64,000 nt of DNA from Ceratodon purpureus. Lineage: Eukaryota; Streptophyta; Bryopsida; Pseudoditrichales; Ditrichaceae. Within the stretch, counting starts at the first letter, position 1; each line of letters begins with the position of its first letter. Location of the stretch: contig CM026430.1 of the NCBI GenBank assembly GCA_014871385.1, positions 3,141,040 to 3,205,039 of the forward strand, in the 5' to 3' direction. Positions 12,413-64,000 of this stretch are shown one piece after another. A model generated the notes under the pieces. That model was not told the origin of the DNA and did not search any database. It was given only the letters and a program-made list of their open reading frames with translations. The translations under genes were made by a program, and so were the position numbers.

Positions 12413-12414
<2 letters not shown>

Positions 12415-14365: not shown

Positions 14366-14367
14366 TA

Positions 14368-14703: not shown

Positions 14704-14705
14704 TA

Positions 14706-32266: not shown

Positions 32267-32304
<38 letters not shown>

Positions 32305-36926: not shown

Positions 36927-36963
<37 letters not shown>

Positions 36964-43189: not shown

Positions 43190-43216
43190 CTTTATGATCG
43201 GGGAAAGGTCGTATGT

Positions 43217-43262
<46 letters not shown>

Positions 43263-43470
43263 AGAAACCGGTGAGCAGTAAATTGGAAATTTTAGGACTA
43301 GTTCAGGGTTTAGTGTCGCCTTAGACTGCGCATTTTAAGCTCATATTTTGAAATATTTTTCAAGAGATGTCACCCTAGGTTTGGGTGTTGTGAACACATC
43401 CGCATAAAAAAAGATGTCACATGTGCAGACATACTCTCTTTCTAGTACAAAAATTAGGGCTGACGTCATC
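43190..43470. repeat. dispersed about 280-bp repeat with (GCGGAGA)n, copy 1
   Basis: Starts at GGGGAAAGGTCGTATGTGAG, carries about six tandem 7-bp units GCGGAGA (43217-43262), and ends at ATTAGGGCTGACGTCATCAT. The same beginning, 7-bp units and ending occur at 54358-54630 with a diverged middle. No terminal inverted repeat was seen. Confidence 0.6.
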
Positions 43471-43803
43471 ATGACCTCATGATTTAGAGGTTGTATACCA
43501 TCCCCTCCATATCTAAACCCTTCCATACCTTTGAACCTGCTTGCACATTATCATCCACCAAAATCAACACAAAAAGTAACTTCCAATTATGCTTGAAACC
43601 TGATAACAAAATGCAATGGACATACCACATACTAAGCAATTAGCTAAGAAACTTGCGGATCCAGAACAATGAAGCCGCATGCTTTTCATCTTGTTCAATT
43701 GTGCCTCTCCATTAATCGATGATGAAACATGTACATGATATTGGCCGACCGGCGCTAGCACAATTAGGACAAATCTGGTCTTTAATTACAAGCTACACCA
43801 AAG

Positions 43804-44073
43804 CTAGGACAAGCTAAATCTAGAAGAACCCCGGATACGGGTTAGCTCTGCGGATGGCGGCTCCCAGGTGTACTTGCAGATGTCGACAAGTCGAGAAAAC
43901 GCAACGCCTGCCTCATAGTTCCAAATTGCAGTGAGGTCCTTGGAGTACACGATGTTCTCCCTCAGAATCCGAGAGTACTCCTCCACCTCAGCCTCAATCT
44001 CCAGAATAACTCCGATGAAACGCACGTCCCCAAAGAAGCTCTTCATCTCCACCTCCGACTGCGGCCGCTCCAT
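43804..44073 (-). CDS. small protein of unknown function, 89 aa
   Basis: The Met at 44073 (MERPQSEVEMKSFFGDVRF) is chosen because it lies about 100 bases downstream of a TATA box (CTTTATAAG at 44201-44209, minus strand). An in-frame upstream Met at 44223 would lie before the TATA. The protein is slightly acidic in its first two thirds (EIEAEVEEYSRILRENI) and predicted helical. It has no domain I recognise. It is divergent from the 149-aa gene at 45114, and the two share a palindrome-rich promoter region. It could extend through introns that I do not detect. Confidence 0.5.
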   Translation of the reverse strand: MERPQSEVEMKSFFGDVRFIGVILEIEAEVEEYSRILRENIVYSKDLTAIWNYEAGVAFSRLVDICKYTWEPPSAELTRIRGSSRFSLS

Positions 44074-44194
44074 CCTGAAGTTTGAAAAAACTGAAAGAGA
44101 ATCAAAGAGGGAGAGGAATGAGAGGAGGGGAGAGCACAGAAAGGAGAGAGTATGAGAAGGGAGGGAGGAGAGATTGTGAGGAATGGGGAGGAGG

Positions 44195-44700
44195 GGCGCC
44201 CTTATAAAGGGCGCCCCTCTCACCCAGGGTTAGGTCAGAGAAGGGGGCGCCGCAAGGGGCGCCCCCCTCACCCAGGGTTAGGTCAGGGTGAGTGGGCCCC
44301 TTCATCAAGGGCGAGGCCCATGACGCCCATTGAAGAGGGCTCTCGGTGCCGAGAGCCCTATGGCCGCTAGGGGCGCCCGTGACCGAGAGCCCCTTCATAG
44401 GGGGTCTCGGTACCGAGGGCCCCTTGCGGCCATAGGGCTCTCGGCACCGAGAGCCCTATGGCCGGGAGGGACCCTCGGTACCGAGAGCCCCTTCATAGGG
44501 GCTCTTGGTATCGGGTGCCCCTACCGACCATAGGGCTCTCGGCACCGAGAGCCCTATGATCGCAGGGGGCCCTCGGTACCGAGAGCCCCCATGGTGATAG
44601 GGCTCTCGGTACCGAGAGTCCCCACTAGGGACCCTCGGTATCGAGAGCCCCATCACCATGGGGGCTCTCGGTACCGAGAGCCCTTAGGGCGAGGCCGCCT
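44195..44700. repeat. array of CTCTCGGTACCGAGAG palindromes in a divergent promoter
   Basis: About ten copies of a 16-bp palindrome, CTCTCGG-TACCGAGAG or with GCACC/GTGCC in the centre, lie between 44335 and 44690. They are usually extended to GGGCTCTCGG...CCGAGAGCCC and separated by 25-45 bp with secondary palindromes (CCATAGGG, CATGGGG). At 44212-44285 there are two copies of a GGGCGCCCC/CCCAGGGTTAGGTCAG unit. The array lies between two divergent TATA boxes. The same core recurs at 50150-51450. Confidence 0.9.
44201..44209 (-). promoter_or_regulatory. TATA box for the 89-aa gene
   Basis: CTTTATAAG on the minus strand, followed downstream by a CT-rich leader of about 130 bases and then the ATG at 44073, a typical plant core-promoter arrangement. 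Confidence 0.6.
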
Positions 44701-44937
44701 TAGGGTGGCCACCGCCCTAAAGCGGTGGCCGCTGCCTAAGGAAGGCGGCGGCCTCCTCTCCTCCCTTGAGGGTTGGAAGGGTGGCGCCCATCCAACCCTA
44801 GGAGGGGGCTCCCTTCCTTGTGATTGGGAAGGAGCGACCTTCCCAACCCTAAGGAGGGGGGGCTCCTCCCAGGGTTGGGAGGGAGCCGCCTCCCAGCCCT
44901 AGAAAGAGGAGGCGGCCGAGAGGGCTCGGTGGGGCCC

Positions 44938-44945
44938 ATATAAGG
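44938..44945 (+). promoter_or_regulatory. TATA box for the 149-aa gene
   Basis: CATATAAG, followed by a strongly CT-rich untranslated leader (44960-45110) and the ATG at 45114. Confidence 0.65.
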
Positions 44946-45113
44946 GGTCCCACTCCACCTCACAACTCACACTTCTCTCCTCACTTCTCTCTCTCACTCT
45001 CTCTCTCACTCTCTCCTCTCCATTCGGACTCTTCTCTCCTCTCCCTCTCTTCTTCTCTCTTCTCCTTCAATCTTCTCTTCCTTCCTCCTATCCTCTCCCT
45101 CCTTTTTCTCAAG

Positions 45114-45563
45114 ATGGTTCGCAAGGTGGTGAAGGTGGCTTCCAAGGGGCTGTGCTCGAAGACTATTGGCAAGAAGAGGGGAAGGGGAGAATCCTGTTCT
45201 GGAGGATCTATGGTGGAGGTGCCGAAGGTGGAGGTTCCTAAGGTGGAGATGCCCAAGGTGGAGGTGCCGAAGGAGGAGGTGTCGGAGGAGGAGGGAAATT
45301 TTGATGGAGCTCAATGGGTGCCTTATGGTCGTAGGGGAGATACACTCATTCTCACCATCGTTGAATATGAAGGGGAGACTGTCCATATGCAGATGGATGA
45401 TGCTGAAGACTATGATTCCGATTCTCATCTCCATTGGTTGGGCTTCGAAGATCAGGAGGCGGCACAGGCTTATAGGCGGAAGTTGGAGGAAGATGCAACG
45501 GATGTGGTGGAGATCATAGCCCCGGAAAACAAAGCAGATGTAGTTGAGGATGGTGTAGCCTAG
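45114..45563 (+). CDS. acidic protein with VEVPK pentapeptide repeats, 149 aa
   Basis: Single open frame with a basic N-terminus (MVRKVVKVASKGLCSKTIGK, then GKKRGRG, possibly a nuclear signal). It continues with four or five imperfect pentapeptides VEVPK/VEMPK (residues about 34-58) and a folded-looking acidic part (DTLILTIVEYEGETVHMQMD, HLHWLGFEDQEAAQAYRRKL). Function is not recognised. Supporting a real gene: a TATA box 170 bases upstream, a clean CT-rich leader and consistent codon use. Divergent partner of the 89-aa gene. Confidence 0.6.
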   Translation: MVRKVVKVASKGLCSKTIGKKRGRGESCSGGSMVEVPKVEVPKVEMPKVEVPKEEVSEEEGNFDGAQWVPYGRRGDTLILTIVEYEGETVHMQMDDAEDYDSDSHLHWLGFEDQEAAQAYRRKLEEDATDVVEIIAPENKADVVEDGVA

Positions 45564-45892
45564 ACATTTGTAGGTGGTAGCCTAGAAATTGGCTAGGAAT
45601 GTGTGCAAATTATTGGGGTACCGTGTTGCTTAGTGGAGTGGCGCCTCTTTGGCAGGTTCAACGCCCTTGTGTAGAGGTTTTTGTAAACCGTGTACCATTT
45701 TGTAAGTACTATAAATGCGAGTTATAACGACAGCCTTAAAGTTGTTATGTCTTTAATCTTAAATTTTTTGATCATTTTAATCTTTAATTTATTGATTTTA
45801 ATCTCCTTTTCTTTCCCTTTAGTATGCTATTTGATTAATGTTTTTACTTTTATTTTTTTATTCTTATTTATGCTTTGGTTCTGTAAATTAAA

Positions 45893-46120
45893 CGAGTCCC
45901 GAGACCCGAGTCCCGAGACCTGAGTCCCAAGTCCCAAGTCCCGAGTCTTGAGTCCCGAGTCCCAAGTCCCGAGTCTCAACACCCGAGTCCCGAGACCCGA
46001 GTCCCAAGTCCCAGGTCCCGAATCTTGAGTCGCGAGTCCCAACACCCGAGTCCCCACTCCCGACTCTCGACTCCCGACTCCCCAGCCGCGAGCCCCGACT
46101 CCTGCCGCGACGCGGGACAA
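45893..46120. repeat. heptamer satellite (GAGTCCC)n
   Basis: More than twenty tandem 7-bp units GAGTCCC with variants GAGACCC and AAGTCCC. Long minus-strand frames here are a product of the repeat. Confidence 0.9.
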
Positions 46121-46319
46121 AGAGTCCCGCCGCGAGCAGGGACAGGGAGTCCCGCCGCGACGGGGGACAAGGAGTCCCCTTGGGCTCCCGAGGAACCCTT
46201 CCCCCACATAGTACTCTCTGTGGGAATCGGCAGGCCCCCCCCTCCGGAGTCTAAGAGAGTTTCGAGACACACTTTCTTTTTGGAAGACCACCCATCCTCC
46301 CTCTATACCCCCCCCCCTC

Positions 46320-46895
46320 CTATCCCAACGCAACTCCCTCTCCCTCTCCCTCTCCCTCACTCCCTGTCCCTCCCCCTCTCCCTCACTCCCTGTCCCTCCC
46401 CCTCTCCCTCACTCCCTGTCCCTCTCCCGCGCCGTCACTCCCTCTCCCTCACTCCCTGTCCCTGTCCCTCTCCCTCTCCCTCTCCCGCGCCGTCACTCCC
46501 TCTCCCTCACTCCCTGTCCCTCCCCCTCTCCCTCACTCCCTGTCCCTCTCCCGCGCCGTCACTCCCTCTCCCTCACTCCCTGTCCCTGTCCCTGTCCCTC
46601 TCCCTCTCCCGCGCCGTCACTCCCTCTCCCTCTCCCGCGCCGTCACTCCTCTCCCTCTCCCTCTCCCTCTCCCTCTCCCTCACTCCCTGTCCCTCCCCCT
46701 CTCCCTCACTCCCTGTCCCTCTCCCGCGCCGTCACTCCCTCTCCCTCACTCCCTGTCCCTCTCCCTCTCCCTCTCCCTCTCCCTCACTCCCTGTCCCTCT
46801 CCCTCTCCCTCTCCATCTCCCTCTCCCTCTCCCTCTCCCTCACTCCCTGTCCCTCCCCCTCTCCCTCACTCCCTGTCCCTCTCCCTTTTTCCTTT
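46320..46895. repeat. CT-rich composite satellite (CTCCCTn / CCGCGCCGTCA)
   Basis: About 570 bp of almost pure pyrimidine on the plus strand, made of CTCCCT, CACTCCCTGTCCCT and recurrent CCCGCGCCGTCACT blocks. The 316-codon frame crossing it (46025-46975) is low complexity and not called as a gene. Confidence 0.9.
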
Positions 46896-47347
46896 TTTTA
46901 AAAATCTTAACTCTTGGGTGTCCTTTTGATTCAAGACCTTTCACTGTTTTTGTTCTTGTTTTTTTTTTGATTTAATGTTTTATCTGTAATTTCTCTTTTG
47001 AGAAGGGGTTCTACTTCTCATTTTATTTTAATTTTTAAATTGTTTCCCCTCCACTGTTTGGCGTCTCCCGGTGTAAGAGAACTTTCGTGGTAGGAAGGGA
47101 GGGAAATTCAGAAATTGGAATTCCAAAATTGGAAGAATGGAATCCAATGGAGATGGGTTAATGCGATACCTATGCAACAAGGAATGGTACAACATAGGAC
47201 AGTAACCAACATAATCATGACTAATTGGTTCACTAATCATGATTCACATAACCCTCCTTTCCTCTTTTAATTTTAATTTTTTAATTTTTACAACAATACC
47301 AAAATTTTAAACTAAGTAAATATTGGTGTCAATAAAATAGTTTGGTC
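46896..47347. other. 3' flank of gene A
   Basis: AT-richer sequence with no recognised gene. It should include the 3' UTR of gene A, whose stop codon is at 47350-47348. Confidence 0.5.
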
Positions 47348-50300
47348 TTAATATCGACGGTATGTATCGAAATAGTCTGAGTCTTCGTCACCTAGATCCA
47401 ATGTATTATCAACAGCAGCCTCCAGATGTAGGTACTCCTTAACTGCTTGGTCATATCTCCGCTTCGTCTTTCGTTTCTTTGGGGAAGGTAATGCAGCCTG
47501 GTGTCTTGCTGCCTGCTCAGCGTAAACAGGCATGCGGAAGAACGTAGCTACCGGCGACAAGGGAACTCGGGCGACTCTGCATACGAAGGCAGTATCTGAG
47601 AAAAGACGATTCTAAGCCTGACTGTTAGATTCAAAAAATGTTCAAAATTTCTGTCTAATACGAGACCTGACGACTACACTCACTGCCTGCCCTTCGGTCG
47701 GATTTCCGGAGGATGGTAAGCCACATCTTCTTCTGCAAGCAGTATCGGAGGATCCTCGTCATCGTCGTCGTCGTCGTCGTCATCGTCTTCTTGGTCACTG
47801 TGATGTTCCCCGACTGGTGCACGGGGAACCAAGTCAGATCTCATCGGAGCAAGAAGTTCCTTGAATATGTCCTCGTCCTCCTCAATAGCGACAATGTGAC
47901 GGCCACGATTGCGACAGACTTGTATGGAGTCGCCTACAAAAGTCGACAAAGTAGGGAGTTAGTATTAAGGCAAACTACAATCTGGAAGTACGGGAAAGAC
48001 AATATCATAAGATTGAAAGGCCGTACATGTTCCTGCCGTGAGGTCAACCACAATGCCTCCAGGAGATGTGCAAGACAAGACAAGGCAGCCCCAGAAATAC
48101 TCATCAAGTTCCTTAGGACCACGCCAAGGCCGATCGCCGTTCATCTTCACAGTCTTGGCGTTAGCCGAGTTCATAAGGACGTTTCCCTTAACAACGTCAA
48201 TATCTCCACTGTGAGTTGGCTTCAGAGTGAAGGCAGAGTTCCGAGTGCCGGTGGGGAGAGATGCTGGCCTGGGATCCGGAGTGCATCTGACATAAAGACC
48301 CACCCTAAAAAGGTTAGTGGTCTCAACCCTAGATGGAACCCGAAGCGGCAGTATGTTGAAGCCGGTCCACTCCTTAAACATCTTGAACCCAAGGCTTGGG
48401 CAAAAGGACTTGATAGTCTTTCTTGTGGAGTTATCGTCAGTGTAAACAAAGACAAGGGCGCCATCATCGTGCAAGAAAGTATGGGCAAACACGAACGTGT
48501 TCTTGAACCAGTCCCTGTGAAGGACATTCCACTTAGGGACATCCGAGGCCGTTCTTGATATGCCTGGTACCGGGGAGTTGTCCGGAACCTGGGCTACTAC
48601 AAGGTCCACCATGCCGTCCTTCGTCTGATTCCTCCCATAAACCCGGCAGGATTTATCATAATTGCACTGGCTTGCGAACTTGTACACCGCATCGAACATC
48701 GACTTATTGATCATACCATTCATGATCAAATCGAAAGTATCGTACTCCACCTCCTTCGGTTCGTCAACCAGTCGAAACTCAGGCTGAGACAGAGTAAAAT
48801 CTGTCCCAGAGGAGTTCCCTGATGGCGAAGGTCCATCCAGTCTACGTCGGGACTTGGGAGATTTAGGGGACCGTTGTCCTTTTCGGTTATCACCGGGTGA
48901 CCCTGCAAGTGAACCAGTGCCACCGTCTTGTGAGGCAGTGGTCCTCTGCGCTACGCGTCTTCCTAGCTGCGCCTGCGCTTTCTTTCTCCTCTGACCAACT
49001 TTCGGGTCCTCCGGTGCAGCCTCTTCTACGTCAGGTACTTCCTCCGGAGTGGCGTTGATGACACCTAGTCGTCTCTTCAGATCTTCCTCCTCGGCGGGGC
49101 AGAAAGTCTTCGCACACTCGATGTACCAACCGCATTCCTTCAGATGCGCTGACGGATAAGTGATCTTCTGATACTCCGTGAAAATGAATGAGTCATGGCC
49201 AGGCTCAGTTTGGGTATCCATCCAATCTGGTTCTTCCGAGATTGCCTTCTTTGGCATCAACTCCCTCCTGTAGTACCTATAAAACAGAGGGAATTGGGTC
49301 AGATTTCTTCATCTGCGCAAAGACCAAACTAAACAAGAGCATACCAAGGTTTTGATACTCACCTATAGATAAACCGGCTGACGATGAGATTGCCCTTAGG
49401 CACCTGGTTCCAAGTGTCGTTCCGCTGGAATGCATGTTTCCCGCCAAAGACAGTTGGAAAAGCTTTTTGCCACACCTTCTTCTTCCAGTAGTTCAGGTAC
49501 ACTTGCCAGGACTTCACTTCCTTAGTCCAGTCTGGAAGCGGATATTCAAGCAGGATAGGCTCAATCTTCTCCGTGATCTCGTCCTCCAATAGCGCATAGA
49601 AGCATGCTTTGTGCAGCCAAGCATGAAGTTGAGACTCACTGCACGAAGACCTCGGAAAACTGTTTGCAGCCCTGGTATTATCAGAGCCGTTCCACATCTT
49701 CAGCCAACGCACTTTATACATCCCCTTGACGTTGGTGGTCGCAATCAGCTGCAGTTTGTCTAGCCCCATCTCGCACTTCTGATTAGGGCGATGGTTGTAA
49801 TGGTTCCGAATCTGAAAGGACGTAAACCCAAACAACGTAAGAAACAAAGTCATGCCATAACAAACGCTCATCAGGCCATTCCACCATTGCAGCTACACCA
49901 CATCCTGGAGGCGTTAAATAACGTCATTGACCAGAACAATCGATCCTTCCAGGAAATCTGCAAATTCAAATGGCTTATCAATGCCGAACATGACGAGCCA
50001 CCTGTCTTTGCAGCTCCCCTAGAGGGTCAAAATAACTTGGACAGTAACGTTCTACTGGTCATCATCTGAAATTTAAACACATCCTACCTAAACTTCTAAT
50101 TCGTAAAGCAACAATCAAGATGCAATATAACACCCAAAATTGACTAAGTGTCTAGAAACCCGACCGCGCCTTTGAGGCCCGAAAGGGGCTCTCGGTACCG
50201 AGAGACCCTTCCCAGCCTCGAAGGCGCGGTCGGGATTTGGTACCTAGCGACATATTCTGCCCCATTGGCCCAGAAACCCGACCGCGCCTTCGAAGCCCGT

Positions 50301-53300
50301 AAGGGCTTCTCGGCACCGAGAGCCCCTTCCGGGCCTCAGTGGAGCGGTCGGGTTTCTGGCCCAAAGGGGCAGAATCTTGCCCCATTTTACTGTAAAAGGG
50401 GACGAAATGGCCCATCAGGCATAAAGAACCCTATAATTGGGTTCTTTATCTGCCTGGTGGGCTCTTTCAGCCCCCCTTTGGGCTTAGAGGGGCCCGTTAA
50501 GGCCCCTTCAAGCCGAAAACCCGACCGCGCCCTTGAGGCCGGGAAGGGCTTCTCGGCACCGAGAGACCCCCCCGGGCCTCAAAGGCGCGGTCGGGTTTTC
50601 GACCCGAAGGGGCCTTAACGGGCCCCTCTCAGCCCAAGAGGGGCCTGTAAAGGCCCCTTGGAGCCGGAAACCCGACCACGCCCATGAGGCCGGGAGGGGT
50701 CTCTCGGCACCGAGAGACCCCTCCGGGCCTCATGGGCGCAGTCGGGTTTCCGGCCCGAAGGGGCCTTATTGGGCCCCTTTCAGCCCAAGAAGGGCCCGGT
50801 AAGGCCCCTTGGGGCCGGAAACCCGACCGCGCCCATGAGGCCGGGAGGGGTCTCTCGGCACCGAGAAGCCCCTCCGGGCCTCATGGGCGGGGTCGGGTTT
50901 CCGGCTCCAAGGGGCCTTATTGGGCCCCTCTCTGCCCAAGAGGGGCCCAATAAGGCCCCTTGGAGCCGGAAACCCGACCGCGCCGGTGAGGCCGGGAGGG
51001 GCTTCTCGGCACCGAGAGACCCCTCCGGGACTCATGGGCGCGGTCGGGATACCGGGCCCAAGGGGCCTTTACAGGCCCCTCTCAACCAAAGAGGGACCCG
51101 ATAAGGCCCCTTGGGGCCGGTTCCCCGACCGCGCCCATGAGGCCGGGAGGGGTCTCTTGGCACCGAGAAGTCCCTCCGGGCCTCATGGGCGCGGTCGGGG
51201 AACCGGCCCCAAGGGCCCTTATTGGGCCCCTCTCAGCCCAAGAGGGGCCCAATAAGGCCCCTTCGGGTCAGTTCCCCGACCGCGCCGGTGAGGCCGGGAG
51301 GGGCTTCTCGGCACCGAGAGACCCCTCCGGGCCTCATGGGCGCGGTCGGGATACCAGCCCCAAGGGGCCTTTACAGGCCCCTCTCAACCCAAGAGGGGCC
51401 CGATAAGGCCCCTTCGGGCCGGTTCCCCGACCGCGCCCATGATGCTGGGATGGGCTTCCCGTTGCCAAACCAGACCTAAAGAAGGGCCTCAACCGGGCAT
51501 CAATTTGGAAAAACAAACTCTCTAAGTAAAAAAAGTCTAGAATCTACATACCTCTGCGATAAAGCCCTTCCCGTTCTTAGGATTTGCGACGGCTTGGAGC
51601 TTGCTAAAAAGCTTGTTGAGGGCTTCTTTTTTCTTCAGAATCTGATTGAATATAACCTCACGTAAACGCTCCCCTGTTTGCTTGTTCAGCGGCGTCGTCT
51701 GCTTGTAGTGATTGCATGCTTCCTCGCCTGCACCTGCTATCTCTTCCTGCCGCATTAAACCAAGAAAGTTAGTTTATTTAATTATTTCGACACAATCTAT
51801 AAAACAGGCAGGAGTATAAACATTTAAGGGATTTACCGAGAAGAGGTGGTTCACCATTGTCTCTGAAGACAATGGATACCAAGTATTGGTCGACTTTGTC
51901 TTCTCCTTCAGGTACTCTTCCTTGCTGAGGATATTCTCAAAATACGTTATGGGTAGCAGCCCATACTTGTGCACCATCTCGATCTGGTGCAAGACATTTG
52001 TCCTAACATGCGCCTGCTCATTTGACCTGTCACGTCGTATGATATTAGATATCACGAACTTAATCTAATGAAATCGACGACCAAGCATTGAGTAAAAACC
52101 AAGCATTAAAGATCAAGCATTAAAGATCTAGCCTCGGAATGGTACTTACTTGTTAACTGAATGCATGGCCCTGAGAATACTTGGGTAAAGATTCTTATGG
52201 ATCTCAAGGACCAAGCAATCAGGCATTCCATGAAGGCGATGCCAGTCCATGTTTCCCATCTTCGCTTCATCGATGTAGCGCTTCCAGGCCGTGTAGCGGT
52301 GATTGCCATCGTAAATGAAAAACATCTTTCCGCGAAGTGGCTTCAAATCGGGGTCAGAATTCAATTCTGAGTCGAATTCATTATCCAAATGATCCCATTC
52401 CGAACTCCATTCCCGTCTGATTTCATCTGTAACCAGCTTCTCCCTCCCTTTCGTATCGGTCAGAGCCACATAGAACACTACTGACCCTACTCTGTACCCG
52501 GTCCGGAACTCGCTCTGCAACCGTAAGACCTCAGACTCCAACACTGGCCTGACTTCGGGCATACTAACCATGCGGCATAAAGGAATTCTCAACCTCGAGA
52601 ACTTCTCTATCGGCAGTTTCCGACTCCCGTTGACTGCAACAAAGGTATCGTTCTCGAACTCCTTGATCATCCGAGCCTCTACCTCCGCTGGTGTCACACC
52701 CTCGTCCTTTCCTAGAGGGTTTTCCGGCAATTCCTCCCCCTTCTTTACCCGCGGCCATGTCAGCTTAGCCGGCGGCGTCTCTGCATCCTCCCCCTCTTCC
52801 TCTTCTTCATCCATCAAGGGATCTTTCTCTTCCGCCTCCACCTCGGCTGTCTTCGCCCTCTTCGGTGAAGGTGTACTCTCCAATGTATGCTCCGCACCAT
52901 TGTTCTGGCCCTCGGCCATCGCCGTCTCCTTGTTGACATTGCCTGCCAGTTCCTCCCGTCCAGACTGCTCTGTCGCCTGCAGGTCCATGCTCTCGTCCTG
53001 CCCCTCCCCTCCTTGCCTGTGCCCAGCAGCCACGACCGGCGTCTCTTCTACAGCCGCCTTCTGAGTCTCCTCCACAGCCGTCTCCTGCGTCTCCTCCACA
53101 GCCGTCTCCTGCGCCTCCTCCTCTCCTTCTTCCTGCAACAATGTGTCGCAACCTAAGTAGTCAGCTGAGTTGAACCCTTTCTAAAACCCTAGATACATAC
53201 AGTGGAACTGGACGCTCTGACGATGCCCTAATACCCTTTCCCGCCCTTACTTCAAGGAGTACTATCTTACCTGCTCTCGCTGGACAGCGGACTCCGCAAT

Positions 53301-54088
53301 TCTAACCTTCTTAGACTTCTTGTGCTTTTCTGGACGCTCCTCCCTACTTGGCCGCTTCTTACTTTTCCTCTCACTTTCCGATGACCTCTCATCTCCAGCC
53401 CTCTTCTTTGTACCCTTCTTCTCACTTGCCGGTGACTTCTCAGTCCCGGACGACCTCTCCTCCCCATGGCCCTTCTTAGACCTACCCTTCTTCAACTTCC
53501 CTCCATACTTAGGGTTAAACATGGCGACAAAATATGTAGACCGACCCGCACCCTACAAACCCTAACGACGTCACCCTAAACCGAACCCTGACTGCACTAC
53601 ACTCACACACACAGAAACCGCAACGCAGTATAAGCCAGGCACAGCAAGGCTGCGAGCTAAGAACACCACGAGGGGGCACAGAGAGACTGAACATGGAGCT
53701 TCTCCCCCTTCTTATACCTGGCCTCAAGAGCAAGGGCGCACAAACTAATGATGTCTACAATTAACACACGTACCTCTAAGCACTCAGGTATGGTGAGGGG
53801 AATTGATTGCTGGAGCGGCGTCACACACTGCGATGGCGATGTCTCACACAACCCGCCCCCCTTTGCTACTCGAGGTACTGCTATGACGGGAAGTTTTGCG
53901 AAGTCCTTACTCAATGCCTTCATGGTCCCGCCAAACCCCTCAACACGTCGCCTTCGTTCCTCAGCCTGTCTCATCCTCGAAGCTGTCAGCTGCCTCGAGT
54001 TTGAAAACAGCTTGTCTCTCCCCTTCCTCTTTCTCTTTCTCTCTCTCACAGGAGTGGCGACCACTTCAGTTGAATCATCGACATGCAT
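47348..54088 (-). CDS. gene A: ParB-like domain fused to degenerate N6/N4-type DNA methyltransferase
   Basis: Nine exons joined by GT-AG introns keep one frame for 1380 residues: 54088-53774, 53552-53271, 53132-52150, 52026-51837, 51746-51552, 49811-49363, 49276-48027, 47933-47684 and 47576-47348. The start (MHVDDSTEVV) is chosen because a TATA box lies about 65 bases upstream. Met at 54118 is possible but too near the likely start site. Residues 1-360 are charged and disordered (KRKRKGR, VEETQ repeats). A ParB-like fold spans about 365-525 (IPLCRMVSMPEVRP and FFIYDGNHRYTAW). A conserved middle region follows (ANPKNG, LDKLQ, KVRWLKMW, WQKAFPTVFGG). The C-terminal third is a beta-class amino-methyltransferase: the motif IV place reads DLVVAQVPDN (near 1030) instead of DPPY, then WRGPKEL and SAM-binding motif I VVDLTAGTC across an exon junction (near 1220). 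The acidic tail ends in DSDYFDTYRRY. Catalysis is probably lost. It is a tandem paralogue of gene B. I know no named family with this architecture. Confidence 0.8.
50150..51450. repeat. 151-bp tandem array of double palindromes in intron 5 of gene A
   Basis: Eight to nine units. From 50671 the phrase CCCGACCGCGCC recurs at 50822, 50973, 51124, 51274 and 51425, a period of 150-151 bp. Each unit is a long near-perfect palindrome of about 90 bp centred on TCTCTCGGCACCGAGAGA, running out to CCCGACCGCGCCCATGAGG and its complement. A second palindrome around GGGCCC...GGGCCC, with AAGGGGCC arms, follows. The first units (50150-50350) are shorter and diverged. The array fills most of the 1740-bp intron between exons 51746-51552 and 49811-49363. 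Confidence 0.92.
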
Positions 54089-54147
54089 CTGTGACACTAT
54101 CCTGCTCTCTCGCCACACTAAACATCCCGGAGAATGCCAGTCATTGC

Positions 54148-54158
54148 TTTAATATATC
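54148..54158 (-). promoter_or_regulatory. TATA box for gene A
   Basis: GATATATTAAA on the minus strand, about 65 bases before the chosen ATG at 54088. This favours that start over the Met at 54118. Confidence 0.55.
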
Positions 54159-54357
54159 TCTCGTCAGGATGAGTACTGTTATTTTTGACGCTTCTAACTG
54201 TTTTGGCGCCCTTCCATATAAAGATTTCCTTAACTCAAAATTCCTAGAATTGGCGGCTCAGATCCCTCCCCTTTTTCCCATGTCAGGGATCTACTTCGAC
54301 ACGGTGTACCAGCCCTAATTATATTCAGTGGCAATCAAGCGACGGCTGGTCCTTATT

Positions 54358-54630
54358 AGGGGAAAGTTCGTATGTGAGCGAAGAGCGTAGAGCGGAGAGC
54401 GGAGAGCACAGAATGGAGAGCACAGAATTGACAATTATCAAAATTTTCAAAAGCAAAGTAGACCCTATAACCGTGGAAAATTACTAAATTAAGGCTTGAT
54501 TTTGACACTTTTTTTAGGAAAAGAGTATATTACCGTGGAGATCAGGGTTAACTCTGGTAAGAATTTATTACGTTTGTTCTCTACGATACAAATTAGGGCT
54601 GATGTCATGATGACGTCATGCATACATTTT
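54358..54630. repeat. dispersed about 280-bp repeat, copy 2
   Basis: Counterpart of 43190-43470 in the same orientation: GGGGAAAGTTCGTATGTGAG, then GCGGAGA units and a GAGAGCACAGAAT duplication, ending ATTAGGGCTGATGTCATGAT. It lies between the 3' end of gene B and the promoter of gene A. Confidence 0.6.
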
Positions 54631-54825
54631 GTTAGATTTGTCATGGGTTTAGGGAAGATACAATGACCATGCGTTAAGTTTTAGATCAAACAAATAATTC
54701 TTTCATAAGATTATGTAAATGCACTAGGAAAAAAAACAAACTTTAAAGAACATAAAGGAGGCAAGGTTTGATAAAATCAAATCAAATCCAATGAAAACAA
54801 CAATAGACCGAAGCCTCCTTCAAAA

Positions 54826-57800
54826 TCACAACATGCTACAGTCGCTACTTTCACTCTCAGAACTAGATGACTCTGAATCTCCTTCTACCGCCTCGTCATC
54901 GACGAATAGAAGGGCCCTAGGATCAAAAGTAGTTGGCCGACTAGGAACATAAGTGAGGGCTCCAGATTGAAACGCCTGTGCTAAGTCCTCTGCGTAGTCC
55001 GGAAGTATGAAAGGCTGAATCGGGCTGGAATGAAGACGCCACGATGGAGTGGACAGTGATGTTGGCCCACGTGGCGGTGTTTCCGAAACTACTCTGCAAT
55101 AGAAAACCGATTGTGGTTAGAATGAGTACGTGGAGGTGCAAAGAGAAGCAGTGCTAGGATATTTTGAACAAAGAATAGAAGACTTACACCACTTATCAGG
55201 TCTTGGTCTCTTTGGAGGAGCTTCGTCTGCTACTGCCGGCCTTGGATGTTTAGGAGGGCCCATGGCGGATGGTTTGAGAAGGGCGTTGAATATGGCATCG
55301 TCCTCCTCAAAAGCGAGAATGTGACGACCAACAGCCTGGGCGGCCTTGATGGAGGCCCCTGAAACTCGGAGAGAAACAAAGAAATGAGGTACTCTGGAAA
55401 AAATGAGAGGAAAAATGAAGCAAGGATATGTAAGAAGAGTTACCTGTCCCTGCATTCCAATCAAGGACTATGTCGCCTGGCTTGGACAGCTCCTCAATGA
55501 TGTTCTGCTTCATCTCAGGGGATTTCTCCCTTGGGCCTCTCCACGGCACCTCCCCATTCATGAGCTGAGAGTCGGCATCGGTGAAGTTGAAAATGGCATC
55601 ACTCTCGGTAATATTGAGTAGCCCATGTATCAGGTCTTCCTTCTTCGTCTGGAAGGAGAAAGTACTGCCACTACGAACGTAGACGCGAATCCAGAACCGC
55701 ATAGTCTGCAGTCAAGCAGAACTAGTGAGTAAAATTAAGCGGAAGGGTTATCAGTAACTAAAGAGAAGGGTATGTTTAGGAAAAGTACCAAGTTCTCGGG
55801 CTTCGTAGGAGAAGTGAGGCCGAGGACATTGACGCCCCACCAGTCCTTGAAGAGCACGTAGTCACCACCAGCAGCTTCTTCGTCGATATCCTTAGCCAGC
55901 TTCTGATCAGTGTTGTAGATGAGGCAGAGGGCACCATCTTTCTGCAAGAAATCATCTGCAAAACGGAAGATGTCGAACACATAATCCTTGTAGCGAGAGT
56001 TCCAAGGCGGAATACTCGTGGGGGGAACGGAAACGGATGGGACGGGAAGATTCTCAGGGATGTCGGCAATGATCAAGTCGACTCCCAGATGGTTCTCTTG
56101 TTTGCACCGGTCCATAACTTCGTTTTCGCGGCCTGCTCCAAACTTGAGGAAACAAGAAAGGAGAGTTAGTAACTACATAGCGAGTGGAGGTGGCAGAATC
56201 CATTAAATGTCAAAATATAGGAACAAACCTTGCGAATGAAGTCTTGAGTCTTGATCCAATCCGGGTCGCCACCTTTTCTCTCCAGTCTCCTATTTCGCCG
56301 TAACATGGAATCCACAGATGAGTTGAAGACGGAAACATGTGTGGAAGTCGAAGCTCCAGCGGAAGAAGTTGCTTGAGGATATAGTTTGGCTTTCCTCTGC
56401 TGAAGGAGACCTCTGGTGATCTGCGAAGCACTGATCGAGGAAGGAGCCGGCGAAGAAGCTGGAGAAGGGTTTGTAACGACAATACCCGGAGAGGGCTCTG
56501 GTGCCTTCTCAGCTGGGGCGGAAGACTCCGCACCAGTTTGTTGCGATGCCTCTGACTTAGAACGCAGAGATTTTAATCGCCTTCCTCTTCCTCTCTTTGG
56601 TGGTGGAGCAGAAGACTGATCCTGCTCTCCTTCACGACCTTCTGCATCATCCGCGGAGTCGTCCACCACAACCTCACCCCCGTCGTGTAGAGTCTTGACA
56701 TCCGCCTCTAAGTCAATCGTGAAACCACGAGAGCAATCAAGATACCAGCAGCCCTCAAGCAAGTGAGGAGATTTGTACCTTTTCAGCTGTTGGGGAGAGT
56801 ACATACACTGGTCCGAGGTTGTCGACGTCCAAGCAGGGAAGTAGTTAGGGAGCTGCTGGACCGTGATGGCCCCCTTCAAAACAAGCTCTCGCTTGAAGTA
56901 CCTAAGTAAACCAATATGTAGAAGGTTAGTATCAAAGTGAAGAGACCTAATTCTCGAATTTGAATCTAATTTAAAGGTATGTAACGTACCGGTAAGTAAC
57001 CCGCTTGACAACCTGAGCGGTTCCAGGAAAAGTAGCAAAAATGGACTTCTTGTCGAAGGGCTTATCAGCCGACTTTCCAATGAACGTAGGGAAGGCCTTG
57101 TCCCACAACAGAATACGTGCACTCTCCACATAATCGCCCGGCTCTTGGACATCTGGAAATGTCTTCCAATTAATAACGATGTTCTCCGCCTTGCATATGT
57201 CCTCAAATCCGTTGATGACGGCTTCCTCCAACTGTATTTCAGAATTCAATTAATTTTCAATGAGAGAAATTCGCGGAAGAGATGAAAGGATCAGGTCATT
57301 GAGAAGGTTTTTAAGAAACTATACCCCAGCCCAGAATGAAGCCTTGTTCAACCAAGGGTCGAAGTCGGTATCCTTGAATTCAGGTGGTAGAAATCTGTAG
57401 GACATTCGAGAACTCAGAGATGAGTTCCACCACCTCAACCAACGAGCCTTGTATTTGGCCTCAACGGCCGCTGGAACAATCTTCTGAAGCTTATCGAGGG
57501 TCATCTCGGGTTTATTGTTCTCACTAAAATGCCGATTAATCTGCAACAAGTAGAGGAGTTTTAAAAAATATGATCAGAAATCTGATGTAGTCAAACGAAA
57601 TACTGAAGTGAACCAGGGTCAGGGTCTCACTTCATTGAGGAAGTCGTCACCGTTCTTGGGATTTGCAATTGCCAAGTACTTAGTGAAGTCCTTCCTCTTA
57701 ATGGATTCGACCATGTTGTTTATTGCTGCAGTCATGGCATCCCAAACACCAGTCGCGGTTTGGTCTTCAATTGCTGTTTTTGTCTTGTAGACTCGGGCAG

Positions 57801-60800
57801 CTTCGTCAGAAGCAGCCGTGATTTCTCTCTGGAAAACAGATTTAAGAAATGGTAAGTTTACAAACAAATACAAATCCTTTGTCGATATGGAAGTGTGATG
57901 AGGGGAGAAAGAAGTGCTTACACGATAAAGAAACGCGATGAAGACTTTGGTTGGCAATGTAAACCAGGATGGATTGGACGGTTTGTGGTTCAAACATAAA
58001 TGATACTCCGCTGGTGTGAGGAGATCCTTGAACTCCTCCAATTTCATCACACCGAATGAGCGAATTCGGAAAAGTTTTGCCGGAATATTACTCTTCACAT
58101 GATCATTTTCTGTAGACCTGTACGAATAGACGATGGTTAGTACAATGCATAAAGATCGAGTTTAACCTGCGTGCAAGAGGAATGGACAAAATAAGGGGTT
58201 TAAATCCTCACCAGTTTATGTCGTGCATGGCATGTAGAAGATTTCCCACATGACCGCGGGGGTCAAGAACAATGCAATGCACAGAAATGTGCCATGCTGG
58301 ATCTTCGCTGTGATGTTTGTTGATATGTCTGTACCATGCCGCAAGGCGATGGTTACCTTCCCAGACATAGAACATCTTCCCAGAAAACTGCTTCAAATCC
58401 GAGTCGGCCAAGAGCTCATCTTCGAAAGCATCATTCGCTTTTTGCCAACAAGGGCTCCACTCAGCCTTGGTCTCCTCTGTGACGTCGGATGTCTTCTCTT
58501 CATGGTCGTAGATGGAAATGTACATGACTCGGTCTCCATCTCTATATCCTTTGACAAACTCGCGCTCCAAATGCTGAACTCCCATTTCTCCTACAGGTCT
58601 CACTCTTGCCATAGAGATCATTCTGCAAAGGGGAACTAGGATACGCGACTTCGTCTTTGGAAGTATTCGGAGCTTATTGATGACGCCTATGGAGTCTTCC
58701 TTGTGTTGTACCCGATGTCCCAATTCACTGTCCACTACATTCGTCAAATCAGGAGGACACGATGGCGCTGGCAACATATCCTGTGTCTGAGTTACCTGCA
58801 AGAAGTCATGCATTTTCAAATTTGATCCGAAGACAAGGATGAGAATAAGTAAAACAATTACGAAGATGAATAAACCAATAGCTTTCAGAACTGATACATC
58901 TCATTTGCAAAACCAACTCTAAACCCAAACAATAGGAAGTAGTACATAGGCCACTATGTACGTGGAGCACGGCTATAATACTCCCTAGCCTGTCTACAAT
59001 TCCAATGACGGCGCCTCCTCCAAAAACGCCTGGTCTGTTGGACAGGGCATGGTAGTATCGCCGGGAGGGCGAAGACAACATGGGCGGGCCTCCTCACTCT
59101 AATAGGCGAGGAAGGAGAAGGTGGAGACATCGGCGGGGTACCAAGCCGTGGAGAAGTAGGCATGTAGCCTGAGGATGTAGGCTCATAGACAGGAGACGTA
59201 GGCATGTACTGAGCGGAGTGGACCTCGAGAGGTCCACTACCTACAACTACAGGGCTTCCTAAATCACACCTACATAAATGGGGCTGATCAAATGAATCCG
59301 AGAGGTCGGAAACATTGATCACTGAGATAGGGGAACTGATGGACAAGGGTGCATCTGAGAATACCTGCAAGCATAGAGACAAAGACAATGTCAATTTAGC
59401 ATTTCAGTTTTCAAAACTACTTAAGAAAGATTTAATAAAAATGCAATGTTGACTACAAAAGCAAAAATGATTAAATTACCTCAGTTTCTGCAGGAGTTGG
59501 ACCATCACCTTCAGCCGCAGTGAGTTGATCTGTGAACTCCTATATTACAAACAGCAAACCACTTATAAGCTTAAAAAAAAAATAAGTAGCAATCCAAAAA
59601 AAAGAATTCGTCATGAGTTGCGAAACTTCTATATTCCCCATCCCAAACCCCCACATTTTATACAAAATTATCACCCCCCGCCCCCTTGCATTAATGGCCT
59701 TGGCAGTCGCATCCCACTCCAATATGCCCTCGCGGCCTCCCCCCACCTCCCCAAAACCCGACATCATGTACATAATGTACATCCACTTCCCCCATCCCCT
59801 CATCGCAATGGTAGGCGCATCCCACTTTAAAGTGCCCTCGCGGCCTTCCCCCATCTCCCCAAACCCCCACATTCTGTACAGAATGTACATAGAACTCCCC
59901 CCTCCCCTTATGGCCATGGCAGTCGCATCCCACTCCCATGTGCCCTCGCGGCCTCCCTCCACCTCCCCCATATTTGTATTCCCCACATTCTGTACAGAAT
60001 GTGGGTCTTACTCCCACTTGCCTTCGCAGCCATGGCAGTCGCATCCCACTCCAATGTGCCCTCGCGGCCCCCCCCCCCACCTCCCCAAAACCCCACATTC
60101 TGTACCGAATGTACATCCCCCGCCCCCTTGCATTAATGGCCATGGCAGTCGCATCCCACACCAATGTGCCCTCGCGGCCTCCCTCCACCTCCCCGATATT
60201 TGTATTCCCCACATTCTGTATAGAATGTGGGTCTGCCCGCCCCCTTGCACTCTTGGCCATGGCAGTCGCATCCCATTTGAATCTGGCGTCGCGGCCTCCC
60301 TCCACCTCCCTCCTTCGCGTATTACCCACATTCTGTACAGAATGTGGGTCTGCCCGCCCCCTTGCACTCTTGGCCATGGCAGTCGCATCCCATTTGAATG
60401 TGGCGTCGCGGCCTCCCTCCATCTCCTTCATATTTGTATTGCCCACATTCTGTACAGAATGTGGGTCTTTACTCCCACTTGCCTCCGTGGCCATGGCAGT
60501 CGCATCCCACTCCAATGTGCCCTCGCGGCCTCCCTCCACCTCTTCCATCTGCGTCTTCCCCACATTCTGTACAGAATGTGGGTCTTTACTCCCACTTGCC
60601 TCCGTGGCCATGGCAGTCGCATCCCACTCCAATGTGCCCTCGCGGCCTCCCTCCACCTCTTCCATCTGCGTCTTCCCCACATTCTGTACAGAATGTGGGT
60701 CTACACTCCCCCTTGCCACCGTGGCCATGGCAGTCGCATCCCACTCCAATGTGCCCTCGCGGCCTCCCTCCACCTCCCCAAACGCCCACATTTTATACAA

Positions 60801-62352
60801 AATTATCACCCCCCGCCCCCTTGCATTAATGGCCATGGCAGTCGCATCCCACTCCAATGTGCCCTCGCGGCCTCCCTCCACCTCCCCAAACGCCCACATT
60901 CTGTACAGAATGTACAACCCCCGCCCCCTTTCCTTCGCGGCCATGGCAGTCGCATCCCACTCCAATGTGCCCTCGCGGCCTCCCTCCACCTCCCCAAAAC
61001 CCCAACTAGTGTACACTCCCTCTAGTTCCGAAACCCCACCCACAACAAATGCGAGCATCTCAACAATCACTGCCCAACTCGCAACCACTGCATTCGCAGA
61101 CTGAGCTGCAGGGACACTTGCAATTCGAATCTCTCCTTTCACGACCCTCTGCAGAGCAATATGCGAATCCGAAACCTCAACCATAGCAATATTCATGAAC
61201 CCAACTTCGGAAATCCGAACCCTTACCTCCTCTGTGGCTCCATCACGATCTGTCTCTCCGCCTGCACTGCTCATCTCCACAACCCCACGGTCTTCTCCAC
61301 CTGCCGCCATTCTTCCAACAGAATGCTCAAACTCCGATGCCGCAAGTTGGAGTTGAGATGTGCCCCCACTTCTCTTCCTCCCTCGAGTTCCTCGACCTCT
61401 CCCTCTCCCTGGACCACCTACCCTTCTCCCTCGATCCGCGACCTCTATCTCCTGACACTCGTTGTCATCAAGGGGCCCCGCCATTGTACATTGCAATTGG
61501 TCTTTGTTCAAACTCCTCTGGGATGGACTCCCGGGGTCCCCTCGTCGCGCTAGCCTTGCAGCGTTTTCTTCCCCACCTTCGCCCGCCTCCATAATTTCTC
61601 GCCTTGCTCTACGAGCCACTCTTATCAAAGTATCAGGATCTGACTCCTCGCCCGCATCCACTTCTGGCGTCTTTTCCTGTACGACGTCTTATCAATCCTA
61701 AACCAATTGAGAATCTGTACAAAAATTTAAGGCAATGTCCATAATTTCTACCTCGCATCTTTTTTTCTTAACATTATCTATGCTTGATGCAACATCGTAA
61801 TTCTTATCAGTAAAAAAATAAAACGCGAGGACATTGCAAAGAACTGAATATTACTCTACAAAATACATAATTAACATTCAGATAATTCAATGTAGCAATT
61901 ACGAAACTTACCACATCCGTGTTAGAATGTTCGCCCGAATGTGAATCTGTGCCTCTTATCGAACACTCCTTAAAACCGAAAGAAGGTTGTGGTGTCTCTA
62001 AAGGTGGACTGGAACTGAGCCCGAGTTCTTCCGTCATCTCTATCTGTTTTTCTCCGCTATTAATTATATCATGCTCCCGATGCTCAACTAAGTTGTCCCC
62101 TAAAACCTCTTCTTCTACCGCTATGATCGACTCCAGAATGAGTTTACGAATGCTACAGAATTTAATTGCCAAAGGCAGCCCAGCTCCTCGAACCTTCAGA
62201 GGTGCACCCGAAATGTTGCCTCTAGAATTCGCCTTTCTACGTGTCTCTCTCCTCTTCCTCGCTCTCCTATTCGTAAAATCCGTACCATATGCTTTTCTTC
62301 TAGGTTTACGGGTGACATAACTAGAGGGAGATGATCCTCCCCTCTCCTTCAT
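54826..62352 (-). CDS. gene B: second ParB-like/degenerate methyltransferase paralogue
   Basis: Exons on the minus strand: 62352-61912, 61676 to an undecided donor, 59539-59480, 59364-59098, 58795-58212, 58117-57922, 57828-57631, 57540-57325, 57231-56990, 56901-56229, 56142-55789, 55705-55444, 55358-55188 and 55091-54826. From 59539 to the stop the frame stays open for 1163 codons. The N-terminus is basic (SSYVTRKPRRKAY) and Arg/Gly-rich (RGRGRGTRGRK). Exon 59364-59098 carries three heptads like the pol II CTD. The ParB-like part is in 58795-58212 (ILVPLCRMISMARVRP and FYVWEGNHRLAAW). The middle matches gene A (ANPKNG, LDKLQ, KARWLRWW, WDKAFPTF). The methyltransferase part has DLIIADIPEN in place of DPPY (about 56055-56085) and intact motif I VLDWNAGTGASI across 55444/55358. 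The tail is SSSSESESSD. Several splice sites match gene A, so the pair arose by duplication. Whether the 117-bp repeats are exon or intron is open. The last acceptor had to be GCAGAG to avoid a stop. Confidence 0.75.
59640..61010. repeat. 117-bp tandem array with an 18-bp palindrome, inside gene B
   Basis: About twelve units. The phrase CACATTCTGTACAGAATGTG is an exact palindrome (extended by one more C/G on each side in many units) and recurs every 107-117 bp, alternating with GTCGCATCCCACTCCAATGT and CCCTCGCGGCCTCCCTCCAC. A few units carry TTTTATACAAAATTAT instead. Because 117 is a multiple of three, long frames stay open on both strands. The array lies between the exon starting at 61676 and the exon at 59539. 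Confidence 0.92.
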
Positions 62353-62416
62353 GTGTCTACCTAACAAGAATCGTCCCTTCTCATCACAAAATAGCTCTCC
62401 TTCTAACTGCCCTTCA

Positions 62417-62428
62417 TCTTATATATCC
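62417..62428 (-). promoter_or_regulatory. TATA box for gene B
   Basis: GGATATATAAGA on the minus strand, about 65 bases upstream of the Met at 62352 and 50 upstream of the one at 62367. Spacing is similar to that of gene A, favouring the start at 62352. Confidence 0.6.
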
Positions 62429-62599
62429 CAAACCTTCAACCCCTCGGTCTCAGTCGTGAATATTTTCCCTATGCCTAGACTATAAATAAATGCATTTTGA
62501 ATTAAAGTTCATCTGATAAATCTAAATTGGAAGAAGGAAAACATGTCCGCAAAATAATAATAGATTTTATTGTGCAATGGTATACTTGTATTAAATATA

Positions 62600-63440
62600 G
62601 AAGGCTCTGACGGCTCACTCTAATCTCACCTACCCACATATCAAATGGAATCGGGTTCACGATTCAAACATTATATGCTTAGTTCTATAAAATCCTACCT
62701 TGTATACTTGGGCCTGCAAAAAGCAGCATTCAAATTAGTTAGCGCCGTCTCTCTTAAATCAAAAATCAAATATGGACATTCCAACCTGAATATAATGATC
62801 AATAGCGATGCATCAATCCAATCACTTTGCTCTCATGATATCGCTTCGCTACTTCACTCACTCTTCTCACTACTTACCTCACTTACCTGCGAAATTTGGG
62901 TGGTCTGTCTGTCCAGCAATCTATTATGAAAATTGAGGAACCTTAACACTGAATAAAATATAGAATTTGAATAAATCATATGCTTGCATTAGTCCTATAT
63001 ATATATAACTAATGCATGAATATGATTAATTCAAATTCTATATATTTATTGTTTTAAATGCAGAAGGAAAAGACGGCTCTTTTTAATCCAATCAAACCCC
63101 ATAAAAAATAGAATCTGCTCCACGGTTTAAACACTTAAAGCAATATTCTGAAAATCTTACCACATATTTATGGGCCTGCAAAAAGTAACATTCTAATCAG
63201 TTAGCGCCGTCTCTCTTTAATCATACATTCGTTACGTAGCAGAATGAATCATTACCTAGTCGTCCACATGGACATTCCAATTTGAATAAAATGATCAACA
63301 GCGATGCATCATTCCTCTCACTTTGCTCTCGCGATACAGCTTGGCTAGTACACTCACTCTTCTCCCTTCTTCCTCTAGTATCTCTGAGTTGCCTGCAAAT
63401 ATGGGGATGGTCTGTTTGTACGCCCAAGGCATGGGCATCC
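62600..63440. repeat. duplicated 5' region of the rightmost gene
   Basis: 62600-62915 and 63090-63440 are diverged direct copies, sharing GGGCCTGCAAAAAG, TAGCGCCGTCTCTC, AGCGATGCATCA and CACTCACTCTTCTC. The second copy carries the ATG at 63401. At the matching place in the first copy (about 62895) the ATG is replaced by TTG. Confidence 0.7.
62959..63043. repeat. imperfect hairpin between the two promoter copies
   Basis: The arms ATAGAATTTGAATAAATCAT and ATGATTAATTCAAATTCTAT flank a core with TGCATTAGT / ACTAATGCA and a TA-alternating loop. It could be a small MITE or a cruciform-forming spacer. Confidence 0.6.
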
Positions 63441-64000
63441 CTCTTAGGATTCGCGTAGATGACGATGGTCTAGCTACGGTGTCCTCTCTTCGCCTCAGTC
63501 TCAGATTCCATTTTCGAGAGGATTCCATCAGTATAGAGGAGGAGATCTTTGATGACGTTACTGCCGAGGTTACCCACACCCTCGGGCAACCTTCAATGAG
63601 AGATGAGAACAACATTTTGCAGTGGAGACTCCTCCCTGGATCCTATAGAGTCTATGGACTTACTGATTCTCTTATGGCTGCATCCACTGAGATCCTCACC
63701 CCCCGTCGCTCTTCTACTTGCACAATTCAGACTCCCTTACCTCGTGATGTCAAAGTCAAAGTCGAGCCTGGTACCGAGACTTCAGATGTAGAGAAACCTC
63801 CTCCGACCGTCATATCTCTCTCTTCTGATGACGAAGTCAGTCCCGTGAAGTTGGTGCCTAAGGTCCATGCAGATGCTCCTCCTTCCAATGTGTCTCCTCC
63901 ATTGTCCCACGTCACAGTTAGCATTGTTCCGCTCCTTCAAGAGATTGCTAAGACGCGTGGGTCCAAAAACATTTTGAAGAAGATAGACTATTCCACTATT
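63401..64000 (+). CDS. partial protein with SUMO-interaction-like motif, runs off the window
   Basis: From the Met at 63401 (MGMVCLYAQGMGIPLRIRVD) the frame stays open for all 200 codons to the window end. Residues about 20-95 look like a folded beta-rich domain (LRLSLRFHFREDSISIEEE, LLPGSYRVYGLTDS). Then comes a disordered Pro/Ser-rich part with VKVKVEPGTE (a VKVE sumoylation-type site) and TVISLSSDDE, which fits a SUMO-interacting motif (hydrophobic core followed by Ser and acids). No family recognised. It is divergent from gene B with about 1 kb between them. The upstream sequence is tandemly duplicated. An upstream exon cannot be excluded. Confidence 0.6.
   Translation, partial: MGMVCLYAQGMGIPLRIRVDDDGLATVSSLRLSLRFHFREDSISIEEEIFDDVTAEVTHTLGQPSMRDENNILQWRLLPGSYRVYGLTDSLMAASTEILTPRRSSTCTIQTPLPRDVKVKVEPGTETSDVEKPPPTVISLSSDDEVSPVKLVPKVHADAPPSNVSPPLSHVTVSIVPLLQEIAKTRGSKNILKKIDYSTI

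Follow-up and report, generated by a model that had tools for sequence, protein, structure and literature searches.

Probable accessory genes with ParB-like and methylase-like parts in two nested transposons of the moss Ceratodon purpureus

We analyzed a window of 64,000 bp on contig CM026430.1 of Ceratodon purpureus (assembly GCA_014871385.1, positions 3,141,040 to 3,205,039 of the forward strand), in which two adjacent genes, A and B, encode proteins that combine a ParB-like segment with a DNA methylase-like domain. The window holds two related DNA transposons with terminal inverted repeats (TIRs); transposon B lies inside transposon A, and its insertion there brought the two genes side by side. 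Genes A and B most likely represent the accessory (second) genes of these elements, which would be Mutator-like transposons that moved recently. The elements, with their target site duplications (TSDs), are laid out as follows (window coordinates).

73843..43200, minus strand: whole transposon A, interrupted by transposon B, its left part beyond the window end
43200..54358, minus strand: right part of transposon A, from blastn against the C9 copy (L014 and L015)
68775..54359, minus strand: whole transposon B, 14,417 bp, inserted into transposon A
54359..64000, minus strand: in-window part of transposon B
43200..43253, minus strand: right TIR of transposon A, length borrowed from the C9 copy
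54359..54412, minus strand: right TIR of transposon B
43190..43199, minus strand: right copy of the transposon A TSD GATCATAAAG, which is present on both sides of the element
54349..54358, minus strand: right copy of the transposon B TSD TAATAAGGAC, the left copy being outside the window

Blastn matched element positions 5056-16099 of a further copy of transposon A (the C9 copy; 16.1 kb, element 1-16099, TIRs of about 54 bp) to window coordinates 54358 to 43200, and positions 1-5068 to 73843 to 68773; the C9 copy holds the insertion site without transposon B. TIRs of about 54 bp were present in both A and B, as in Mutator-like elements (MULEs), and the ends of transposon B read GAGGGTAGCTTGTACGTGAGCG.. 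and ..CGCTCACATACGAACTTTCCCC. A perfect 10-bp TSD, within the 8-11 bp of MULEs, flanked both transposons of the window and copy c2b, that is, three of the five insertions with both ends; c11, where the right end is inverted, was omitted from this tally.

The family is present in hundreds of copies in the genome (362 Mb in 151 contigs, one of 110.5 Mb). Ten copies of transposon A were retrieved, each with 10-kb flanks, and the nine others were 98.2-99.6% identical to the C9 copy across about 8 kb. Homology started at GAGGGAAGCTTGTATGTGAGCGG, at the same base in eight of the ten and three bases earlier, with matching flanks, in two, and the opposite end closed with CGCTCACATACGACCTTTCCCC in c9, c2b, c4, c11 (inverted) and the window. 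The right terminus, with two or fewer mismatches, occurred 428 + 444 times in the genome (control pattern, 1 + 0), and a 124-aa piece of A had at least 154 exon matches (150 of 2628 first-look candidates scored). Transposon A also contains a basic open frame upstream of gene A that ends near a splice donor (53657-54148, minus strand) and an acidic one near its right end (44853-45563, plus strand).

Each element carries a second, divergent gene for a putative DDE/SWIM, Mutator-like transposase, and that of transposon B begins within the window.

63401..64000, plus strand: start of the transposase of transposon B, whose frames continue to 65524 and at 65562-67076, beyond the window

In A and B, the D, D, CxxH and E motifs and a SWIM-like CxC..CxH were read by eye, the SWIM match itself (E = 0.056) being below the cut-off; for F3, a further clade of the family, the D and CxxH parts come from reading the sequence and the others from alignment. 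The transposase of the A copy was about 67% and 74% identical to two parts of the B transposase, and that of F3 was 43% and 50% identical to B's parts (N-terminal piece, 31%). The transposase accompanied the accessory gene in all three clades examined (A, B and F3).

The two genes were modeled on the minus strand as follows.

53522-47348, minus strand: gene A, 8 exons, 1265 aa from ATG
53522-53271, 53132-52150, 52026-51837, 51746-51552, minus strand: gene A exons 1-4
49811-49363, 49276-48027, 47933-47684, 47576-47348, minus strand: gene A exons 5-8
59539-54826, minus strand: gene B, 12 exons, 1162 aa plus stop, 5' end open
59539-59480, 59364-59098, 58795-58212, 58117-57922, minus strand: gene B exons 1-4
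57828-57631, 57540-57325, 57231-56990, 56901-56229, minus strand: gene B exons 5-8
56142-55789, 55705-55444, 55358-55188, 55091-54826, minus strand: gene B exons 9-12

Both models stay in frame with GT/AG borders, and BLASTP aligned the products at 35% identity (E = 5.7e-90 for A246-757 and 2e-38 for A913-1136), so their likeness is not due to chance. A preliminary description, made from the DNA letters, had already regarded A and B as multi-exon paralogues; its length for gene B (at least 1163 codons) agrees with the present model, and no model reached the 1380 codons it gave for gene A. The matching introns it reported hold for six positions (after A residues 411, 475, 540, 689, 1106 and 1189), the first five of which share their phase in these models; the phase of the last differs, and B has extra introns.

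All eight exons of gene A were found in eight of ten other copies (one exon each of c1 and c4 was short of the last residue), later exons of c13 and c3 were absent from the fetched stretch, and no exon found in the ten copies contained a stop. The ParB-like exon of B was stop-free in 131 of the 150 scored genome copies (manual count, the window's own included). Four clades were seen: A, B, F3 (L037-L049), which has the same order of parts as A and B, and F4, known from one methylase exon (L060). The F3 ParB-like exon is under purifying selection, with a median dN/dS of 0.044 over the 26 usable pairs out of 66 (12 sequences, the partial L049 excluded; of the other pairs, 39 were saturated and one was too alike).

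Separately, stop-bearing copies of the B ParB-like exon were unevenly distributed, with 17 of 59 on the 110-Mb contig C6 and 2 of 91 elsewhere (Fisher P = 2e-6, 150 listed copies, manual count). C6 is probably a sex chromosome; for this species, a genome of 360 Mb has been reported in which both U and V exceed 100 Mb (PMC8000587). The N-terminal exon of gene B at 59098-59364 (minus strand) contains YMPTSPVYEPTSSGYMPTSP, which by eye resembles RNA polymerase II C-terminal repeats.

The ParB-like segment is marked by a shared motif.

52296-52307, minus strand: GNHR motif of gene A
58346-58357, minus strand: GNHR motif of gene B

GNHR, a GxHR-type motif that had been noted earlier in both genes, was present in all 15 aligned family sequences, and DGHHR, DGQHR or GNHR occurred in some of the phage ParB-like proteins compared. 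In a profile-profile comparison with hhalign, the family matched a set of 13 phage ParB-like proteins and three PDB fragments with a probability of 43.7% (P = 2.4e-4), carried entirely by DGNHR; none of 200 shuffles reached the score in either of two nulls, and the reversed profile gave 0.33%. The preliminary description had named an HHpred probability above 90% as the test of its ParB-like domain, and the value obtained falls short of it: the support obtained is for a motif and not for a fold, and "ParB-like" seems a fair label on motif grounds.

Pfam, NCBIfam and PHROG scans of this segment gave nothing significant after correction by eye. The weak Pfam matches comprised seven families, including Glyco_hydro_4C (0.0015, the best), DndB (0.011) and DUF1015 (0.074). 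The Glyco_hydro_4C match was taken as noise, as was a Pfam match to Laminin_I. DUF1015 belongs to the ParB superfamily. DndB has been assigned to the same superfamily (PMC10853773). A PDB profile search of the segment returned one unrelated weak match and no ParB, and P1 ParB used as a seed returned only nearly identical copies. In a Klebsiella phage (L112), a ParB-like gene is followed directly by a DNA methyltransferase gene.

The methylase-like domain is located as follows.

48027..48648, minus strand: gene A, exon 6, with motif IV QVPD and motif I DLTAGT, continuing in exon 7
55444..56142, minus strand: gene B, with motif IV DIPE in exon 56142-55789 and motif I DWNAGTG in exon 55705-55444, running on into exon 55358-55188

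In both proteins the domain is C-terminal and permuted, with motif IV ahead of motif I, as had been described; for B, the domain is statistically supported by matches of the N6_N4_Mtase family (PF01555, 7.7e-7; phrog_6952, 3.6e-9). B also matched the phage SfV DNA methyltransferase (42.9% over 63 aa, E = 7e-6), and its homology to methylases appears solid, whereas A alone reached only 0.019 against PF01555. The earlier claim of spliced genes with a permuted methylase of bacterial or phage kind in a plant genome is borne out.

Motif IV reads D[IV]PEN in all nine B-clade sequences (eight loci plus B), QVPD in A, DVPE in F4 (one locus) and DTPF in F3 (one locus), departing from the catalytic [DNS]PP[FYW], with E or D in place of the aromatic residue in three of the four clades. 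Motif I reads AGTG in the B clade, TAGTC in A, where one Gly is lost, and ASTG in F3 and F4. Loss of the motif IV aromatic residue argues against catalysis in those three clades. Because DPPY reads DIPE/DVPE, QVPD or DTPF, catalysis is doubtful in most clades, and the methylase-like domain lacks its catalytic signature in most of the clades seen. A DndH domain has been called inactive through erosion of the same motifs (PMC10853773).

The elements' non-coding DNA contains a palindrome, TTCKGTACMGAA in B and F3 and CTCGGTACCGAG in A.

59642..61004: 117-bp tandem repeats of transposon B, with TCKGTACMGA starting at 59873, 59989, 60099, 60332, 60449, 60566, 60683 and 60900
44336..44683: palindromic repeats of transposon A, with TCKGTACMGA starting at 44407, 44475, 44573, 44606 and 44668
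50192..50201: a TCGGTACCGA site within the fourth intron of gene A
50486..51458: 151-bp tandem repeats, also within the fourth intron of gene A, that contain the near-palindrome CTCGGCACCGAG

TCKGTACMGA occurred eight times in the A element (C9 copy), eight times in the B element, and 4 and 12 times in two F3 stretches (shuffle means, 0.01-0.04). It was absent from window positions 1-40000 and from 29 kb of flanks; in the whole window, 14 sites were observed against 0.19 expected. Because the pattern was chosen after palindromes had been seen in the repeats, its frequency in A and B cannot serve as independent evidence. The B sites, which sit in the 117-bp array, are not independent of one another; the F3 sites are partly solitary and partly grouped in a 42-bp and a 199-bp array. 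Introns and central or 3' non-coding DNA hold the sites found, and none lies in the TIRs.

Genome counts provided the independent test. TTCKGTACMGAA occurred at 1252 sites, compared with 138 for the reversed pattern and 76 for the control palindrome TTGKCTAGMCAA, and CTCKGTACMGAG occurred at 440 sites compared with 84. Among the first 50 TTCKGTACMGAA sites listed, all on contig C1, 44 lay within 20 kb of the ParB-like or methylase-like matches listed, and six were singles; these matches, with positions entered manually, cover 4.5% of that stretch of C1, and none of six control-palindrome sites lay near one. The corresponding binomial P of 5e-53 overstates the case because sites within one cluster are not independent; more safely, all six clusters with two or more TTCKGTACMGAA sites lay within 6 kb of a family match.

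We infer that the protein binds this motif and that the outcome is anti-silencing. It would work as a sequence-specific DNA reader, non-catalytic in most clades, and would recognize the palindromic repeats of its own element (TTCKGTACMGAA or CTCGGTACCGAG, depending on the clade); binding would keep the element from silencing, or otherwise control its expression and transposition, as VANC does for VANDAL. In our judgment, such an element-borne regulator, working like the VANC anti-silencing proteins without kinship in sequence, has an even chance of being the correct account.

VANC binds short motifs of its own VANDAL family and removes silencing marks, and related VANCs use other motifs (PMC5735166, PMC10398659); these motifs vary from family to family and are arranged as tandem repeats in introns and elsewhere in non-coding DNA (PMC5735166). 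The Arabidopsis VANDAL elements, which belong to the Mutator superfamily, resemble the moss elements in their accessory gene, in short motifs within tandem repeats of introns and non-coding DNA, and in a motif that varies by family. They differ in that the moss protein is ParB- and methylase-like, its motif is palindromic, and the moss system is known from sequence. VANC is linked to DUF1985, and general Pfam scans gave no DUF1985 match in the moss proteins.

Several observations weigh against this account of mobile elements and their reader. The TSD was absent from c9 and c4, two of the five insertions with both ends, and the transposase frame of three of the ten A copies contains stops. No MULE model matched the transposase in the Pfam scan, so that the name "Mutator-like" relies on motifs read by eye together with the TIRs and the 10-bp TSD. 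The ParB match drops to 0.17% once DGNHRY is masked. The B-clade methylase exons are less constrained than the F3 ParB-like exons, with median dN/dS values of 0.57 in one exon (28 pairs, eight sequences; L054 fell outside the search pattern) and 0.34 in the other (36 pairs, nine sequences; highest pair, 1.25), and L052 and L056 carry a stop in the exons used. With its aromatic residue kept (DTPF), F3 suggests that some clades may still be enzymes. For the A-type motif, only 12 of 27 sites on C1 lay within 20 kb of a listed match; 12 more formed two clusters whose beginnings are about 1.2 kb away from an A-type right terminus, and three were singles. On C2, a cluster of four A-type sites (5363377-5365275) had no listed match or terminus nearby. 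Finally, the transposase or a host factor could be the binder of the motif.

A more specific version of the anti-silencing account is possible, although we hold it only tentatively: a prokaryotic ParB-methylase turned into a non-catalytic reader would load on parS-like palindromic repeats, spread and shield the element from silencing. Such a system would have arisen separately from VANC, and its target motif and protein would have changed in step from clade to clade (TTCKGTACMGAA versus CTCGGTACCGAG).

Somewhat unlikely, in our view, is a transposition helper like maize MURB, which would bind the internal palindromes and organize the long element or recruit the transposase, with silencing uninvolved. 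The pairing of the gene with a transposase in three clades is in keeping with a helper, but the motif sites avoid the TIRs and are placed like VANC targets, and nothing in these data links the protein directly to transposition. We give a similarly low probability to the palindrome being the site of the transposase or a host factor while the ParB/methylase-like protein does something unrelated. The evidence that bears on binding is the co-occurrence of motif and gene, and GTAC is the core bound by plant SBP-box factors; however, the element sites read CTGTACAG or CGGTACCG, whereas the SBP core is CGTAC, and palindromes are what both presumed ancestries of the protein, ParB with parS and type II methylases, recognize.

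An active DNA adenine or N4-cytosine methylase, marking the DNA of the element that encodes it, is improbable. The permuted domain, AGTG in the B-clade motif I, the D and second P of DPPY retained in B, F3 and F4, DTPF in F3, and the eukaryotic precedents of bdelloid N4CMT and the Marchantia 4mC methyltransferase (PMC8885841) are in its favor, but the aromatic position is occupied by E or D in three of the four clades, A lacks both the Asp (QVPD) and one motif I Gly (TAGTC), and F3 and F4 have ASTG. The reading of the preliminary description, an old acquisition turned resident tandem gene pair, could appeal to spliced genes with common intron positions but is hardly tenable for genes that lie inside nested, high-copy transposons with TIRs, 10-bp TSDs, many dispersed copies and paired transposases, and it is contradicted by the C9 copy's site without B.

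Other known systems share single features with the elements that would carry this regulator. Maize MuDR, with mudrA and mudrB, likewise has a transposase gene and a second gene in one Mutator element, although the moss genes are divergent. ParB-methylase combinations are known from bacteria, as previously stated, the Bacillus cereus protein Bce_0392 being such a fusion (PMC5512222). Bacterial and phage ParB-methylases and beta-class methylases (SfV orf48, CcrM) parallel the moss protein in that a single protein unites a ParB-like segment with a permuted N6_N4_Mtase domain; CcrM ADPPYNLQ aligns with B ADIPENLP, a stretch that scored -1.3 bits and is therefore a matter of alignment, not of significance. 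Unlike them, the moss protein has a middle region of several hundred residues, introns, an eroded DPPY and a eukaryotic transposon as carrier. Bdelloid N4CMT and the Marchantia enzyme are also amino-methylases of bacterial origin in eukaryotes (PMC8885841), but they are resident genes with 4mC activity shown or reported, whereas the moss gene is high-copy and mobile, and its product is probably inactive as a methylase.

Against phages and plasmids, only the methylase end of B matched among the matches listed (20 of 139 and 20 of 2257 records, respectively). Pattern matches in IMG/VR viral contigs (whole protein or ParB-like segment) and in GTDB genomes (whole protein or methylase part) were not confirmed by tblastn in any case. 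We found no account of such an element or protein in the open literature searched, most subscription papers lying outside it, and the main text of a Mutator survey (PMC6446971) does not contain the words "methyltransferase", "ParB" or "moss".

To our knowledge, few systems, mainly VANC, let a transposon evade silencing in a sequence-specific manner, and the gene pair with its palindrome may be a hitherto unknown means of doing so. Here, a protein of bacterial DNA-modification and ParB-like parts, with no match to the VANC family, occurs in a high-copy moss element whose candidate target motif is sharply defined. If the protein binds that motif, it would offer a second, independent system in which to study the evasion of silencing by mobile DNA. 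It would then also be a clear example of a methylase repurposed as a reader, and the motif would be a compact palindromic address that might help to direct chromatin states.

Elsewhere in the window, tandem repeats with 46-bp and 34-bp units occur as two sets, at 31848-32416 and 36815-37382, in mirror order and opposite orientation, as if they were the ends of an inverted-repeat element of about 5.5 kb. By eye, a frame at 7334-7738 (minus strand) resembles a pogo-type DDE transposase, and an exon at 20922-21407 (minus strand) resembles the small subunit of plant carbamoyl-phosphate synthase.

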